A stretch of 5,574 bases of DNA from Thermotoga sp. 4484_232 (GTDB lineage Bacteria; Thermotogota; Thermotogae; Thermotogales; Thermotogaceae), in NCBI GenBank assembly GCA_002084985.1, contig MZGO01000087.1, positions 1 to 5,574 of the forward strand. Direction: 5' to 3'. How positions within the stretch are numbered: the first letter of the stretch is position 1; each line of letters begins with the position of its first letter. This document shows, in pieces, positions 408 to 5,241 of this stretch. A program made the position numbers and the translations under genes. The notes under the pieces are model-generated. The model was not told the DNA's origin. It ran no database searches and saw nothing but the letters and a program-made list of their open reading frames with translations.

Positions 408-878
408 TCATTCTGGTCCTATTCCGATAATTTCATAACGGAACGTTCCTTTAGGAGCTTTTACTTTCACAACATCCCCTACCTTCCTACCCAACAGACT
501 CCTTCCGAGGGGTGAATCAGAGCTGAGTTTTCCGTTGAATATATCCGCTTCCTGGGGTGTGACCAGTCTGACTTTGTATTCTTCATTGGTATCCAAATTT
601 CTAAGGATAATCCAGTGTCCAAGTCCCACCTCACTGGCTTCCGCATTTTCTATTATCTGAGCGTTGTTCAGAATCTGCTCTATTTCCATGATCCTACTTC
701 CTATTCTTCCCTGCTCATTCTTCGCAGCCTCGTACTCAGAGTTCTCTGCAAGATCTCCCAACTCCCTCGCTTCTTTTATCCTCTCCGATATCTCGTACAT
801 GAGCTTTCTTCTCAATTCTTCAAGTTCTTTCTTCAAACTCTCGTAACCCTCTTTCGTTAGGTATATGACTTTTTTCAT
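408..878 (-). CDS. greA: Transcription elongation factor GreA
   Basis: GreA enters the secondary channel of backtracked RNA polymerase and stimulates cleavage of the 3' end of the nascent RNA, so that stalled complexes restart. The 156-residue length is normal for the family. Residues 1-75 form the antiparallel coiled coil. Its tip carries '[13 protein letters not shown]' (41-53), with the acidic pair D42 and E45 corresponding to the catalytic D41/E44 of the E. coli protein. Residues about 82-156 are the FKBP-like C-terminal domain, including '[18 protein letters not shown]'. The ATG start overlaps the nrdR stop as ATGA, and a strong GGAGGTGA site lies at 883-890, so translation is probably coupled to nrdR. 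GreA rather than GreB is supported by the length and by recalled similarity to Thermotoga GreA. Confidence 0.96.
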
Positions 879-1342
879 CTCTTCACCTCCCTTTCTTTCT
901 TCAATTCCTTGACAATATCCAGAAATTGATCTATTTCTCTGAAATCCCTGTAAACAGAGGCGAATCTAACATAGGCAACTTGATCTAATTCTTTCAAACC
1001 GCTCATGACCAGTTCACCTATGACTTTTGTACTCACCTCAGGGTTTCCCATCTTTTGGATTTCAAGAACAACCCGATCAACCAACTTTTCCATATCTTCG
1101 TAAGTTACAGGCCTTTTCTCACACGCTTTCAATATTCCCCTCATTATCTTACTTCGATCGAATTTTTCCCTTCTTCCATCTTTCTTTACAACCAGGACCG
1201 GCCCCACTTCGTATCTCTCATAAGTTGTGAACCTTGCACCACATTTTGGACATTCTCTTCTTCTTCTGATGACAGCTCCGTCGGATGTTGGCCTTGAATC
1301 CAGAACTTTGGTATCCTCATAACCACAGAAAGGACACTTCAC
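875..1342 (-). CDS. nrdR: Transcriptional repressor NrdR
   Basis: NrdR senses ATP/dATP and represses ribonucleotide reductase genes by binding NrdR boxes in their promoters. The 155-residue protein has the N-terminal zinc ribbon with C3, C6, C31 and C34 ('CPFC' and 'CPKC'), a basic stretch 'RRRREC', and then an ATP-cone domain starting around residue 48 ('[20 protein letters not shown]', 51-70) and running to about 138. The start is GTG at 1342, overlapping the whiA stop as GTGA. It is supported by a G-rich site (GGGGGCGAT) inside the end of whiA and by the expected M-x-C-P start of the family. The stop overlaps the greA ATG. No ribonucleotide reductase gene is in view, so its targets lie elsewhere. 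Translation may depend on ribosomes arriving from whiA, which is disrupted here. Confidence 0.96.
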
Positions 1343-1830: not shown

Positions 1831-2171
1831 CTCAAGATGGTAGTGGTAACGAGGATCGGTAACAGATCCTGAAGAGAGGAAAAATCCCCTCAGTTAAAAT
1901 ATCAGGTAGGATACCTTCATTCCTCAGATTCAGAACTATCCTCTTTCTTCCTAACCTCTCCTCTTTGAATATCTCTAAAGATCTCTCACACAATTTAAGG
2001 TATCTAATAATCGTTACGAGATACCAGAATATCTCCACGTCTCAATTCCACACTACCTCTAGCCTTTATGAACCCTAAAAACTCATATTTCACTTCATCT
2101 TTTGACAGGATTGGGAACCTAACGAGCTCATCTTTCACTTCATCGGAAAAGGTTGAACGCTTTGTTCTCAA
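1339..2171 (-). pseudogene. whiA: WhiA-like DNA-binding protein, broken into three reading frames
   Basis: WhiA proteins combine an N-terminal LAGLIDADG-homing-endonuclease-like fold with a C-terminal helix-turn-helix. They act in sporulation-specific transcription in Streptomyces and in division and chromosome segregation in Bacillus. Here the homology is in three frames. Piece 1 (to the TAG at 2006-2004) has 'RSTFSDEVKDEL' and 'FLGFIKARGSVEL'. Piece 2 (about 2038-1896) has 'IIRYLKLCERSLEIF' and 'RIVLNLRNEGILPDIL'. Piece 3 (from 1893) has 'LRGFFLSSGSVTDPRYHYHL', '[16 protein letters not shown]', '[19 protein letters not shown]' and the HTH '[20 protein letters not shown]'. Each break moves the frame by +1 (equivalently -2). 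The best start is TTG at 2171, with GGAGGG just upstream and a TTGA overlap with the yvcK stop; an ATG at 2186 is less likely. Several residues expected at both junctions seem to be missing, judged from memory of T. maritima WhiA. Decay, sequencing error and split expression all remain possible. Confidence 0.8.
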
Positions 2172-3121
2172 CTTTTTTCCCTCCATCCCATCATTTTCAT
2201 CAGAGTTTTGGCAAGTTTCATTGGATCATGTCTTACTTTAACTCTCCCATCATAGGGATCCTTGATAGTACAAAGCAAAGGCTCAACAACGACCATTTTG
2301 TCCAGATTCTCTAGATCCAGCACTACCAAATCTGCCCCTTCCTTTCTGTATCTTTCAAGTATATCATCTGATGGCCTTTGGGAATTCGCTATTATGAAAT
2401 CAACCTCCTTTCCAAGATATCTCTCGATTTCTTTGACATGATCTGATAGTCTATACCCCACAGTTTCACCCGGTTGTGTCATGATGTTGCAAACATAAGC
2501 TAGTATCGCATCTCCATCTTGTATGGCTTCTTTCACTCCCTTTACCAAAAGATTGGTTACAACACTCGTGTATAGACTTCCAGGACCTAATATGATCATG
2601 TCGCTTTTTCTCAGAGTTTCCAAAACTTCAGGGAGGGCTTCCGTTTCCCTGTCCAACTCCACTTTCACTATCTTCCCTTTTTTCTCAACAATTCTTGTTT
2701 CTCCCACTACTTTGCTCCCATCTTCAAAGAACGCTACAAGACGTACCAGATCTTCACTCACAGGAAGAACCTTTCCTTTTATGGCCAAAATCTCTGAGAG
2801 GATCTTTATGGCACCTGAAAAACTACCTGTCATCTTTGTAAGAGCCGCTATCATGAGATTTCCTACCGTATGTCCTTTGAAACTGCCGTTTTCAAAACGA
2901 TAATTCATGAGCTTACCAAGTAAATGCTCGTCCTTTGCCAGAGCTACGATATTGTTTCTTACATCTCCAGGTGGTGGAATCCTTAGCTCTTTCCTTATGG
3001 TCCCAGAGCTTCCTCCTTCGTCAGTCACGGAGACCACTGCTGTTATTTCCACAGGAAATTCCTTCAAACCTCTTAGAAGCATTGAAAGACCTGTTCCTCC
3101 ACCTATAGCGGTTATCTTCAT
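2168..3121 (-). CDS. yvcK: YvcK family protein (gluconeogenesis/cell-shape factor, CofD-like fold)
   Basis: YvcK proteins bind UDP-sugars such as UDP-GlcNAc and are needed in Bacillus for normal growth and shape on gluconeogenic carbon sources; the fold resembles the 2-phospho-L-lactate transferase CofD. The 317-residue length is typical. Visible family motifs are the N-terminal 'GGGTGLS' (7-13), 'TDEGGSSG' (33-40), 'PPPGDVRNNIVALAK' (49-63), 'GHTVGNL' (83-89), 'GPGSLYTS' (179-186) and 'MTQPGETVGY' (214-223). The usual DDGGSSG is DEGGSSG here, a change I recall also in Thermotoga homologues. The ATG overlaps the rapZ stop as ATGA, and the gene ends overlapping the whiA start. The rapZ-yvcK-whiA order is the classic conserved trio of Gram-positive genomes. 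Biochemical activity beyond sugar-nucleotide binding is not settled for the family. Confidence 0.95.
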   Translation of the reverse strand: MKITAIGGGTGLSMLLRGLKEFPVEITAVVSVTDEGGSSGTIRKELRIPPPGDVRNNIVALAKDEHLLGKLMNYRFENGSFKGHTVGNLMIAALTKMTGSFSGAIKILSEILAIKGKVLPVSEDLVRLVAFFEDGSKVVGETRIVEKKGKIVKVELDRETEALPEVLETLRKSDMIILGPGSLYTSVVTNLLVKGVKEAIQDGDAILAYVCNIMTQPGETVGYRLSDHVKEIERYLGKEVDFIIANSQRPSDDILERYRKEGADLVVLDLENLDKMVVVEPLLCTIKDPYDGRVKVRHDPMKLAKTLMKMMGWREKS

Positions 3122-3966
3122 TCTATCCCCTTCCCAAGATCTCTGTGTTCCTCCAAAATTGATATACCGATCTTGCTGATTTCCTCGGCTATTCTTCGAG
3201 CTATGTACACGGATCTATGTTGACCACCGGTACAACCGATTGCCACTGTTAAACTTTTCCTTCCCTCCTTCGAATACTCATGAAAAGCCGTTAGAATTAT
3301 CTTAACTATGGATTTCACGTATTCTTCAACCTGGGGGTATTCTTTAAAAAACTCCCTCACTTCTTCATCAAGCCCTGTTTTGTGTGAAAGATTCGGATGG
3401 TAGTGCGGGTTCGGGAAGAACCTCGCATCAAAAACAAAATCGGCATCCATTGGGATGCCGAATCTGTAACCAAAACTCATGATTCTTATTATCCCTTCTT
3501 CCCATTCTGCTTTTAAAATTGAGAGGAGTTTTTCCCTCAGTTGATGAGCATTCAATCTGGAAGTATCTATCACATGATCTGCTATTTCCTTCAAATCCAT
3601 CAATTTTTCTCTTTCAACCTCTATAGCCTTCTCAAGGCTCATTCCATCTTGTAATGGATGCTTCCTCCTGGTCAGTGCATATCTTCTTAAGATCTCTTCT
3701 TTCGATGCTTCAAGGAATATAACCTGGGCTTTCAATTTATCTTTCAATCTTTTTATCTTCTCCACAGGATCCCCGAATATTTCACTCCTTATATCGACAA
3801 CTATTGCGAATTTCTCTATCGTTGAGCTCATAAGAAGTCTCGTCATTTCTTCGATGAGAGCGGTGGGAATGTTATCCATGCAGAAATAACCCAGGTCTTC
3901 CAGAAGACCGATGGCGGTGGTTTTACCTGCCCCTGAAAGTCCCGATACCACCAAAATTTCCTTCAA
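3118..3966 (-). CDS. rapZ: RNase adapter protein RapZ / nucleotide-binding YvcJ
   Basis: This P-loop protein in E. coli binds GlmZ/GlmY small RNAs and guides RNase E; in Bacillus (YvcJ) it hydrolyses nucleotides and affects competence. The 282-residue length is normal. The N-terminal domain has Walker A 'GLSGAGKT' (9-16), a Walker B-like 'IVVDIR' (55-60) and 'ALTRRKHPL' (97-105). The C-terminal domain has 'FGIPMDADFVFDARFFPNP' (169-187) and the signature 'AIGCTGGQHRS' (242-252). The start is TTG at 3966, the only one placing the P-loop at the normal distance, with a GGATGGTGA site upstream inside murI. It overlaps murI by 44 bases and yvcK by four. Since RapZ controls amino-sugar (GlmS) supply in E. 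coli, sitting next to murI fits a cell-wall theme. Whether GlmZ-like RNAs exist here is unknown. Confidence 0.95.
   Translation of the reverse strand: MKEILVVSGLSGAGKTTAIGLLEDLGYFCMDNIPTALIEEMTRLLMSSTIEKFAIVVDIRSEIFGDPVEKIKRLKDKLKAQVIFLEASKEEILRRYALTRRKHPLQDGMSLEKAIEVEREKLMDLKEIADHVIDTSRLNAHQLREKLLSILKAEWEEGIIRIMSFGYRFGIPMDADFVFDARFFPNPHYHPNLSHKTGLDEEVREFFKEYPQVEEYVKSIVKIILTAFHEYSKEGRKSLTVAIGCTGGQHRSVYIARRIAEEISKIGISILEEHRDLGKGIE
3430..3461 (-). terminator. Terminator-like hairpin with U-rich tail inside rapZ
   Basis: On the coding (minus) strand a perfect 9-bp stem is formed by TCGGCATCC (3461-3453) and GGATGCCGA (3448-3440) around a CAAT loop (3452-3449), with six G-C pairs. It is followed at once by TTTTGTTTTT (3439-3430). 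This is the architecture of an intrinsic terminator. It lies in the codons for the conserved RapZ segment 'IPMDADFVF', so protein constraint may explain part of it. Normal translation would probably mask it. A role as an intragenic attenuator is inference. Confidence 0.4.
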
Positions 3967-4738
3967 ATTCCTTCACCATCCTTTCGAATTCCTCGAAAGA
4001 TATCCCTTTTATGGTATATGAAACATTCACATCTATCATCTTCACCAATTTTTCTTCAAATTCATGAGCATCACCTGTGACAAAAAATTCCACACAACTC
4101 TTCTCTTCAGAATCCTTTAGATCCTTCTCCACAATACTGGCTAATTTTTCCGCAGGATCTATTACTTTCACCTCTTTCAGATACCTCTCTACTACGTCCT
4201 TAAAATACAGGAAGTGGGTACACCCCAATATCAGAACGTCGGGTTTGAATTTTTTTACATCTTTCAGGTAATGTTTAACCAGGTCCTCAGCGATTCCGCT
4301 ACGAAATCCCCCTTTCTCGATCATCGCCACCAAGAGTTGTGCGGGCTTTTGCAGAACTATAGATGCATCTCTCAATTTTTCTTTGTACACCCCGCTTTTA
4401 ACGGTAGCTTCTGTGGCAAGGATCGCTATCTTTTCACCCTTCACACCATTCACAGCCGCATCAATAATGCTGTAATAAGGTACTGGAAGCCTATCGGCAA
4501 ACGAATTGATAACACTGTCTATGGTGTTACAAGCAGAAACTATGATATCCACGTTCTTATTCAGAAGAAAAGATATTATCTCCAGCGTGTATCTTTTCAA
4601 AGTCTCCAATGGTTTCGTTCCATACGGTGCTCTATTGGTGTCAGCAAGATATATATAACAATTATATGGAGCTCTCCTCAAGAGCTCCCTTAAAACAGTA
4701 AGACCCCCTACACCCGAATCAAAGAGTCCCACTCTCAT
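3923..4738 (-). CDS. murI: Glutamate racemase
   Basis: MurI converts L-glutamate to the D-glutamate used in peptidoglycan, by a cofactor-independent two-cysteine mechanism. From the ATG at 4738 the protein has 271 residues, normal for the family. It shows 'GLFDSGVGGLTVLREL' (4-19, with D7/S8), 'DTNRAPYGTK' (33-42), the first catalytic cysteine C70 in 'SACNTIDS', and the second, C173, in 'LGCTHF' (171-176). The usual first-cysteine motif is ACNTAS; here it is ACNTID. The open frame extends upstream to a TTG at 4756, but the ATG has a GAGGTGG site nine bases before it and gives the expected M-x-x-G-L-F-D-S-G start. It overlaps zapA by 20 bases. The C-terminal tail ('GNFGGIGTFRGR') runs 44 bases into rapZ. 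Confidence 0.95.
   Translation of the reverse strand: MRVGLFDSGVGGLTVLRELLRRAPYNCYIYLADTNRAPYGTKPLETLKRYTLEIISFLLNKNVDIIVSACNTIDSVINSFADRLPVPYYSIIDAAVNGVKGEKIAILATEATVKSGVYKEKLRDASIVLQKPAQLLVAMIEKGGFRSGIAEDLVKHYLKDVKKFKPDVLILGCTHFLYFKDVVERYLKEVKVIDPAEKLASIVEKDLKDSEEKSCVEFFVTGDAHEFEEKLVKMIDVNVSYTIKGISFEEFERMVKEFEGNFGGIGTFRGR
4668..4688. repeat. Perfect 8-bp inverted repeat (hairpin) in murI
   Basis: GGAGCTCT (4668-4675) and AGAGCTCC (4681-4688) are perfect inverted repeats separated by five bases (CCTCA on the plus strand, TGAGG in the murI message). They lie near the start of murI in the codons for 'ELLRRAP'. No T-run follows on either side, so this does not look like a terminator. It may be a chance result of the codons or a local mRNA structure affecting early murI translation. 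Confidence 0.45.
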
Positions 4739-4997
4739 CCTTTTTTTCCACCTCAAGACTTCTAGCGATTTTGGAAGACAATTTCTTTATTCTCTCAGAA
4801 AGTCTGACATTCTCCAAAGCCAGATTTGCCAGCATAACGAACAGTATCTGTTCTATCCCCACTTCATCCACATATTTCTCGTATTTTCTGAACTCGTTTT
4901 TAATCTTGTCTACGACCTTAAGGTACGTCTCTTCATCTTCATCAGTTGTTAGAACGTACTCTCTGCTACCCAGTTTGATGCTCACCTTCTTCCTCAT
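4719..4997 (-). CDS. zapA: Cell division protein ZapA-like
   Basis: ZapA binds FtsZ and bundles Z-ring protofilaments at midcell. The 92-residue protein has the ZapA layout: a short N-terminal beta domain ('VSIKLGSREYVLTTDEDEETY', about 5-25), then helix 'LKVVDKIKNEFRKY', and 'IEQILFVMLANLALENVRL' (49-67), which matches the family's helical dimerisation segment, followed by a coiled-coil tail rich in Lys/Glu. The ATG at 4997 is preceded by AGGAG about ten bases upstream. An in-frame GTG at 4985 with GAGGAAG before it would give a shorter N-terminus and is a fair alternative. The gene overlaps the upstream coiled-coil gene by 32 bases and murI by 20. ZapA sequences are weakly conserved, so the call rests on layout, size and the LANLAL-type helix. 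Confidence 0.82.
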   Translation of the reverse strand: MRKKVSIKLGSREYVLTTDEDEETYLKVVDKIKNEFRKYEKYVDEVGIEQILFVMLANLALENVRLSERIKKLSSKIARSLEVEKKDESGTL

Positions 4998-5241
4998 CCC
5001 ACACCAACTCCTGACCTGTCGTCATTGAGAGAAACTTTTGAAGCTTCGTGACCAGGGTGTTCAAAGACTTCCTATGACTCTCCAGTATCAATTCTAGCTC
5101 TTTCTTCTCCCTCTCAAGGCGTTCCACTCTTTCAACAGCACTATTCAATTCCTCCCATAACCTTTCGTTTTCACTTTTCATCTTTTTGTACCCTTCTATG
5201 AGCTTGTCCACAAGTTTTTCCAGCTCTTCTATCTCCTTCAT
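4966..5241 (-). CDS. Small coiled-coil protein of unknown function, first gene of the operon
   Basis: I do not recognise a named family. The 91-residue product is almost entirely one charged helix. Residues 1 to about 72 show heptad-spaced hydrophobics ('IEELEKLVDKLIEGY', 'LWEELNSAVERVERLE', 'LELILESHRKSLNTLVTKL'), and then a short acidic tail ('WDEEEGEHQTG'). There is no signal peptide or membrane segment, so it should be cytosolic. It starts at ATG 5241 with GGGTGATC (5246-5253) four bases upstream, and it directly follows the operon promoter. It overlaps zapA by 32 bases, which suggests coupled translation. Size, coiled-coil nature and position recall the ZapA partner ZapB of enterobacteria, but sequence homology cannot be shown from here and the role is only a guess. 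Confidence 0.8.
   Translation of the reverse strand: MKEIEELEKLVDKLIEGYKKMKSENERLWEELNSAVERVERLEREKKELELILESHRKSLNTLVTKLQKFLSMTTGQELVWDEEEGEHQTG

Follow-up and report, generated by a model that had tools for sequence, protein, structure and literature searches.

WhiA proteins (TIGR00647) combine an N-terminal LAGLIDADG-like part, represented in Pfam by PF14527, with a C-terminal helix-turn-helix (HTH) domain, PF02650. The structure of Thermotoga maritima WhiA has been solved as PDB 3hyi, and in many bacteria whiA adjoins glmR, as stated in PMC10714963. The same study links the gene to cell division in Bacillus subtilis: removal of WhiA from cells without ZapA is described there as blocking division, and the whiA zapA double deletion as yielding no viable colonies on minimal medium, while depletion of WhiA in minimal medium in a zapA deletion background is reported to have had no clear effect on growth (PMC10714963). 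In Mycoplasma gallisepticum, WhiA is reported to repress only when its HTH domain and its endonuclease-like domain both bind DNA (PMC11701221). A different kind of precedent is provided by false pseudogenes produced during genome assembly, which have been documented by Cooley and Wright (2024; PMC11017572).

The window, meaning the whole stretch of DNA analysed here (5574 nt), carries a whiA locus that resembles the family in position and in much of its content but not in its reading frame. It ends inside a gene at each side, namely a partial lysS at the left end (NCBIfam PRK00484, positions 2-127 of 488) and, at the right end, a partial plus-strand aminotransferase-like gene. Read from right to left, the minus strand holds a coiled-coil-like ORF, zapA, murI, rapZ, yvcK, whiA, nrdR and greA. 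The operon had been described in the earlier note as otherwise intact, and profile matching agrees: the six neighbours contained entirely in the window, greA, nrdR, yvcK, rapZ, murI and zapA, cover their profiles nearly end to end. For instance, yvcK (2168-3121, minus strand) matches TIGR01826 with 365.3 bits over positions 1-309 of 310, nrdR (875-1342, minus strand, GTG start) matches TIGR00244 over positions 1-147 of 147, and zapA (4719-4997, minus strand) matches PF05164 with 36.4 bits against a cut-off of 23.8 over positions 1-81 of 88. As in the family, whiA lies beside yvcK, which we take to be the same gene as glmR. whiA shares 4 nt with each neighbour, its start with the yvcK stop (2168-2171) and its stop with the GTG start of nrdR (1339-1342); these overlaps suggest translational coupling, through which nrdR too could suffer from an interrupted whiA.

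Several further features of the neighbourhood were recorded. The 44 nt at 3923-3966 belong to both murI and rapZ, and residues 7-240 of the 277 encoded by murI align to a solved glutamate racemase with only small gaps; since the match ends at residue 240, the last 37 residues form an unmatched tail running into rapZ. Directly upstream of zapA and overlapping it by 32 nt, a minus-strand ORF of 91 aa (4966-5241) matches ZapB weakly, at 22.6 bits, below the cut-off of 31.5 and among several coiled-coil families. Judged from its sequence, this ORF might encode a ZapB-like partner beside zapA in this lineage. zapA itself had no match among solved structures, and no RNA family reached its gathering score in the window.

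Three-frame translation and exact matching to the closest intact homologue, P0001, revealed that the minus strand carries the whiA segments in their proper order but each in a frame of its own, as had been proposed, instead of all in one open frame of about 300 codons. The earlier note had placed the broken gene at 1832-2171, which is correct for the broken half, whereas the whole locus extends over 1339-2171, from a TTG start at 2171 (residue 1 of P0001) to a TGA stop at 1341-1339, and has two small deletions within it. The first piece, A (2004-2171), encodes WhiA residues 1-51 followed by four out-of-frame residues and a TAG stop, giving a product of 55 aa (P0049). Piece B (1895-2020) holds residues 61-102 in the second frame and makes up the island, about 125 nt long, that the two junctions enclose. 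Piece C (1342-1893) holds residues 117-300 in the third frame, where a 163-aa ORF beginning at ATG 1830 bears the HTH domain. By exact matching, residues 2-51 of P0001 correspond to 2168-2019, residues 61-102 to 2020-1895, and residues 117-300 to 1893-1342. The breaks, formerly bracketed between 2041 and 2006 and between 1896 and 1893, can thus be narrowed to 2018-2021 and 1894-1895. At junction 1, residues 52-60 of P0001 are absent and 29 nt are missing, the exact break being ambiguous owing to a 2-nt overlap of the flanks; at junction 2, residues 103-116 are absent, 41 nt are missing and one base is left over. These lengths are in line with the suggestion that both junctions are several residues short and reflect small deletions rather than single-base errors. 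In total 23 codons are absent relative to P0001, 9 at junction 1 and 14 at junction 2, and the gene occupies three frames because both missing lengths equal 2 modulo 3.

Intact relatives were sought with the three pieces joined as one protein, with X at the junctions, which returned 48 proteins from 1393 candidates. The best match, P0001, is a 300-aa protein in one whole frame with Thermotogaceae bacterium as its source name; the 91% identity given for it comes from local BLASTP alignment of the joined query. Compared codon by codon at the protein level with this cluster representative, the window encodes the same residue at 276 of 276 shared codons. The cluster comprises 25 member sequences on 17 contigs, the longest of 121,014 nt, although the representative alone was compared and some of the 25 members may be fragments. 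Two further 300-aa proteins follow at 82% and 79% identity, after which identity drops to 46%; the losses in the window are therefore deletions relative to its three closest proteins, all of which share the 300-aa layout. The 55-aa product P0049, in turn, was the sole candidate in the protein database, with one member on one contig of 5574 nt. As this is also the length of the window, the window appears to be one complete short contig, probably of metagenomic origin. Within the reach of that search, which covers ORFs of similar length sharing words with piece A and misses breaks elsewhere or uncalled genes, the same lesion was found in no other contig or member of the species. When used as a query, the 163-aa ORF of piece C retrieved two distant proteins but missed the ORF of the window itself, which was presumably folded into another cluster such as that of P0001, and a search of this kind cannot count broken whiA copies. 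These comparisons do not bear out the idea that WhiA has been lost by the organism or its lineage, given an intact protein that agrees at every shared codon and a broken product found on a single contig.

A wider survey gave the following context. In the order of Thermoanaerobacter wiegelii (G001), which belongs to another phylum and serves as a loose yardstick, the whiA match was a single open frame with no internal stop in 24 of 24 genomes. PF14527 was matched in 4 of 14 control genomes, T. maritima among them, and of 25 pattern matches to WhiA in viral contigs none was confirmed. A search of genome contigs with yvcK gave a top segment of 52% identity among the best 80 of 549 confirmed loci, with no Thermotogota title among the matches listed, and a search of plasmids gave 35 records, each below 60% identity.

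What the deletions remove can be read from the domain content. The HTH half is clean, as had been noted, with HTH_WhiA (PF02650) scoring 88.9 bits over 84 of 84 profile positions. Placement on P0001 puts both breaks in the N-terminal LAGLIDADG-like half, again as expected, and this part is incomplete, with residues 52-60 and 103-116 gone; PF14527 (LAGLIDADG_WhiA) is matched over positions 30-92 of 93 in the 163-aa ORF compared with 2-92 in P0001. Piece C hence retains the HTH domain in full, together with a large part of the second LAGLIDADG half. Neither piece A nor piece B reached any Pfam family alone. Against solved structures, piece A alone matches the T. maritima WhiA structures 3hyi and 3hyj (E 4e-9 or better) and piece C alone matches 3hyi (E 1e-34), the latter structure aligning with residues 5-296 of P0001. 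With piece B alone, no solved WhiA structure was retrieved (best E 0.91), and the identity of this piece as WhiA rests on P0001. R60, D109 and F116, which are invariant when 25 of the 48 homologues are aligned, all lie in the lost stretches. In an AlphaFold2 model of P0001 (mean pLDDT 87.7, pTM 0.70), helices are predicted at 55-67 and 110-124, and the deletions would remove residues 55-60 and 110-116, the first halves of both. The second of these helices leads into the LRGFFLSSGS stretch, which we presume to be important in the LAGLIDADG-like domain. With invariant residues and helix halves missing, it is predicted that neither read-through nor frame shifting could yield a normal WhiA fold.

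The most probable reading, to which we assign a probability of roughly 0.58, is that the broken whiA arose in a single assembly event in a Thermotogaceae species that normally has an unbroken whiA; assembly rather than mutation is what we infer as the cause. The assembly may have had a thinly covered patch at whiA, in which a read-sized piece, the island of about 125 nt being close to short-read length, would have been abutted to its neighbours over two uncovered gaps. Such an event would leave junctions with little or no homology, gaps of unrelated size and nothing else altered. One event fits better than two in a decaying gene, since the gaps are only about 125 nt apart and no amino acid is changed elsewhere in whiA. 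In favour of an assembly flaw are the complete match to a whole P0001, the contrast between its 25-member, 17-contig cluster and the single contig of P0049, and the character of the junctions. At junction 2, microhomology would be impossible if the intact allele encodes P0001, because the code demands the third base of a Phe codon just before the right flank and the second base of an Asn codon just after the left flank, and the window disagrees with both. Both junctions also fold ordinarily (z -0.90 and -0.70, against -1.91 to 1.45 for 10 other stretches of the window, 2 of which lie below -0.90), and loss driven by a hairpin was rejected on this ground. Some observations count against an assembly flaw. 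Gaps as long as 29 and 41 nt are not known to be usual among the small indels of assemblies, and profile matching reveals no lesion in the other six named genes that are complete, indicating that the contig is not generally poor. Junction 1 moreover lies in a quasi-palindrome that a mutational event could use. The artefactual pseudogenes of PMC11017572 resemble this locus in that a gene whole in a near-identical relative is broken in one assembly, and differ from it in that the relevant text of that study deals with frameshifts and internal stops at large and does not mention paired gaps such as those of 29 and 41 nt. Illumina-based assemblies are reported there to have generally the fewest such pseudogenes, which also weighs against an assembly flaw, and a causal link from coverage to frameshifts is given low confidence, at 37% (PMC11017572).

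It is possible, though we hold it to be somewhat doubtful, that whiA was really and recently knocked out in one strain, by a complex deletion or by two deletions in quick succession in the LAGLIDADG-like half. The 55-aa N-terminal product would then be left, with perhaps the 163-aa HTH product from ATG 1830, and WhiA would either cease to function or keep DNA binding alone. By analogy with M. gallisepticum, where the available description makes repression dependent on both domains (PMC11701221), an HTH-only product would be expected to bind DNA but not to repress normally. The deletions are precise and the rest of the contig is clean, as a genuine knock-out would predict, and a B. subtilis whiA mutant is described in PMC10714963, so that bacterium survives the loss. 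The quasi-palindrome, with 12-nt arms at 1999-2010 and 2014-2025 that are 83% complementary and 3 nt apart, could have promoted a template switch; this structure at 1999-2025 is itself partly made by junction 1. Recent strain-level pseudogenes likewise carry inactivating lesions without further decay at the protein level. Here, however, two nearby deletions or one complex event would be needed, no other residue is changed in 276 codons, the broken product is known from one contig only, and whiA is a single open frame throughout the more distant order surveyed.

That a working WhiA forms from separately translated pieces A, B and C, or results from two programmed shifts across them, is highly improbable. 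The GTG 2038 start of ORF B does precede the stop of ORF A, a single base separates the ORF B stop from ATG 1830 of ORF C so that coupled re-initiation is imaginable, and the short runs TTTT, GGGG and TTTTT lie beside junction 2. Shifting, however, cannot restore 9 and 14 missing codons, nor R60, D109, F116 and the N-terminal halves of the helices at 55-67 and 110-124; a homopolymer scan of 1357-2172 found no A/T run of at least 6 and no G/C run of at least 5, with runs of 4-5 bases beside junction 2; and P0001, which agrees with the window at every shared codon, is encoded in a single uninterrupted frame. In a frameshift gene the codons are kept and the frame alone changes, whereas here 23 codons are missing relative to P0001, which refutes a full-length product by programmed frameshifting. 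Two single-base sequencing errors in an intact whiA, an explanation with nothing in its favour beyond the frameshifts themselves, retain almost no probability, being already refuted by the whole codons missing at both junctions.

The broken whiA is therefore most likely either an assembly flaw or a defect of one strain, not a loss typical of the species; it is most likely no biological feature, and otherwise an ordinary strain-level pseudogene. The locus carries a caution, in that the operon is clean and the contig short, yet the broken gene is whole in a record matching every shared codon, for which reason claims of gene loss need raw reads first. The concern raised in the earlier note about a loss of whiA next to zapA was sound as regards B. 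subtilis, in which the interaction is reported (PMC10714963), and is silent on whether the loss is real here; as zapA is intact by profile, the two-gene effect does not apply directly. It is unlikely that a natural Thermotogaceae strain lives without full-length WhiA, with the HTH half only and an intact zapA, and that the LAGLIDADG-like half is dispensable there. We know of no tested function of WhiA in this lineage. Were the lesion genuine, the locus would represent a natural whiA knock-out in a lineage for which the structure of WhiA has been solved.
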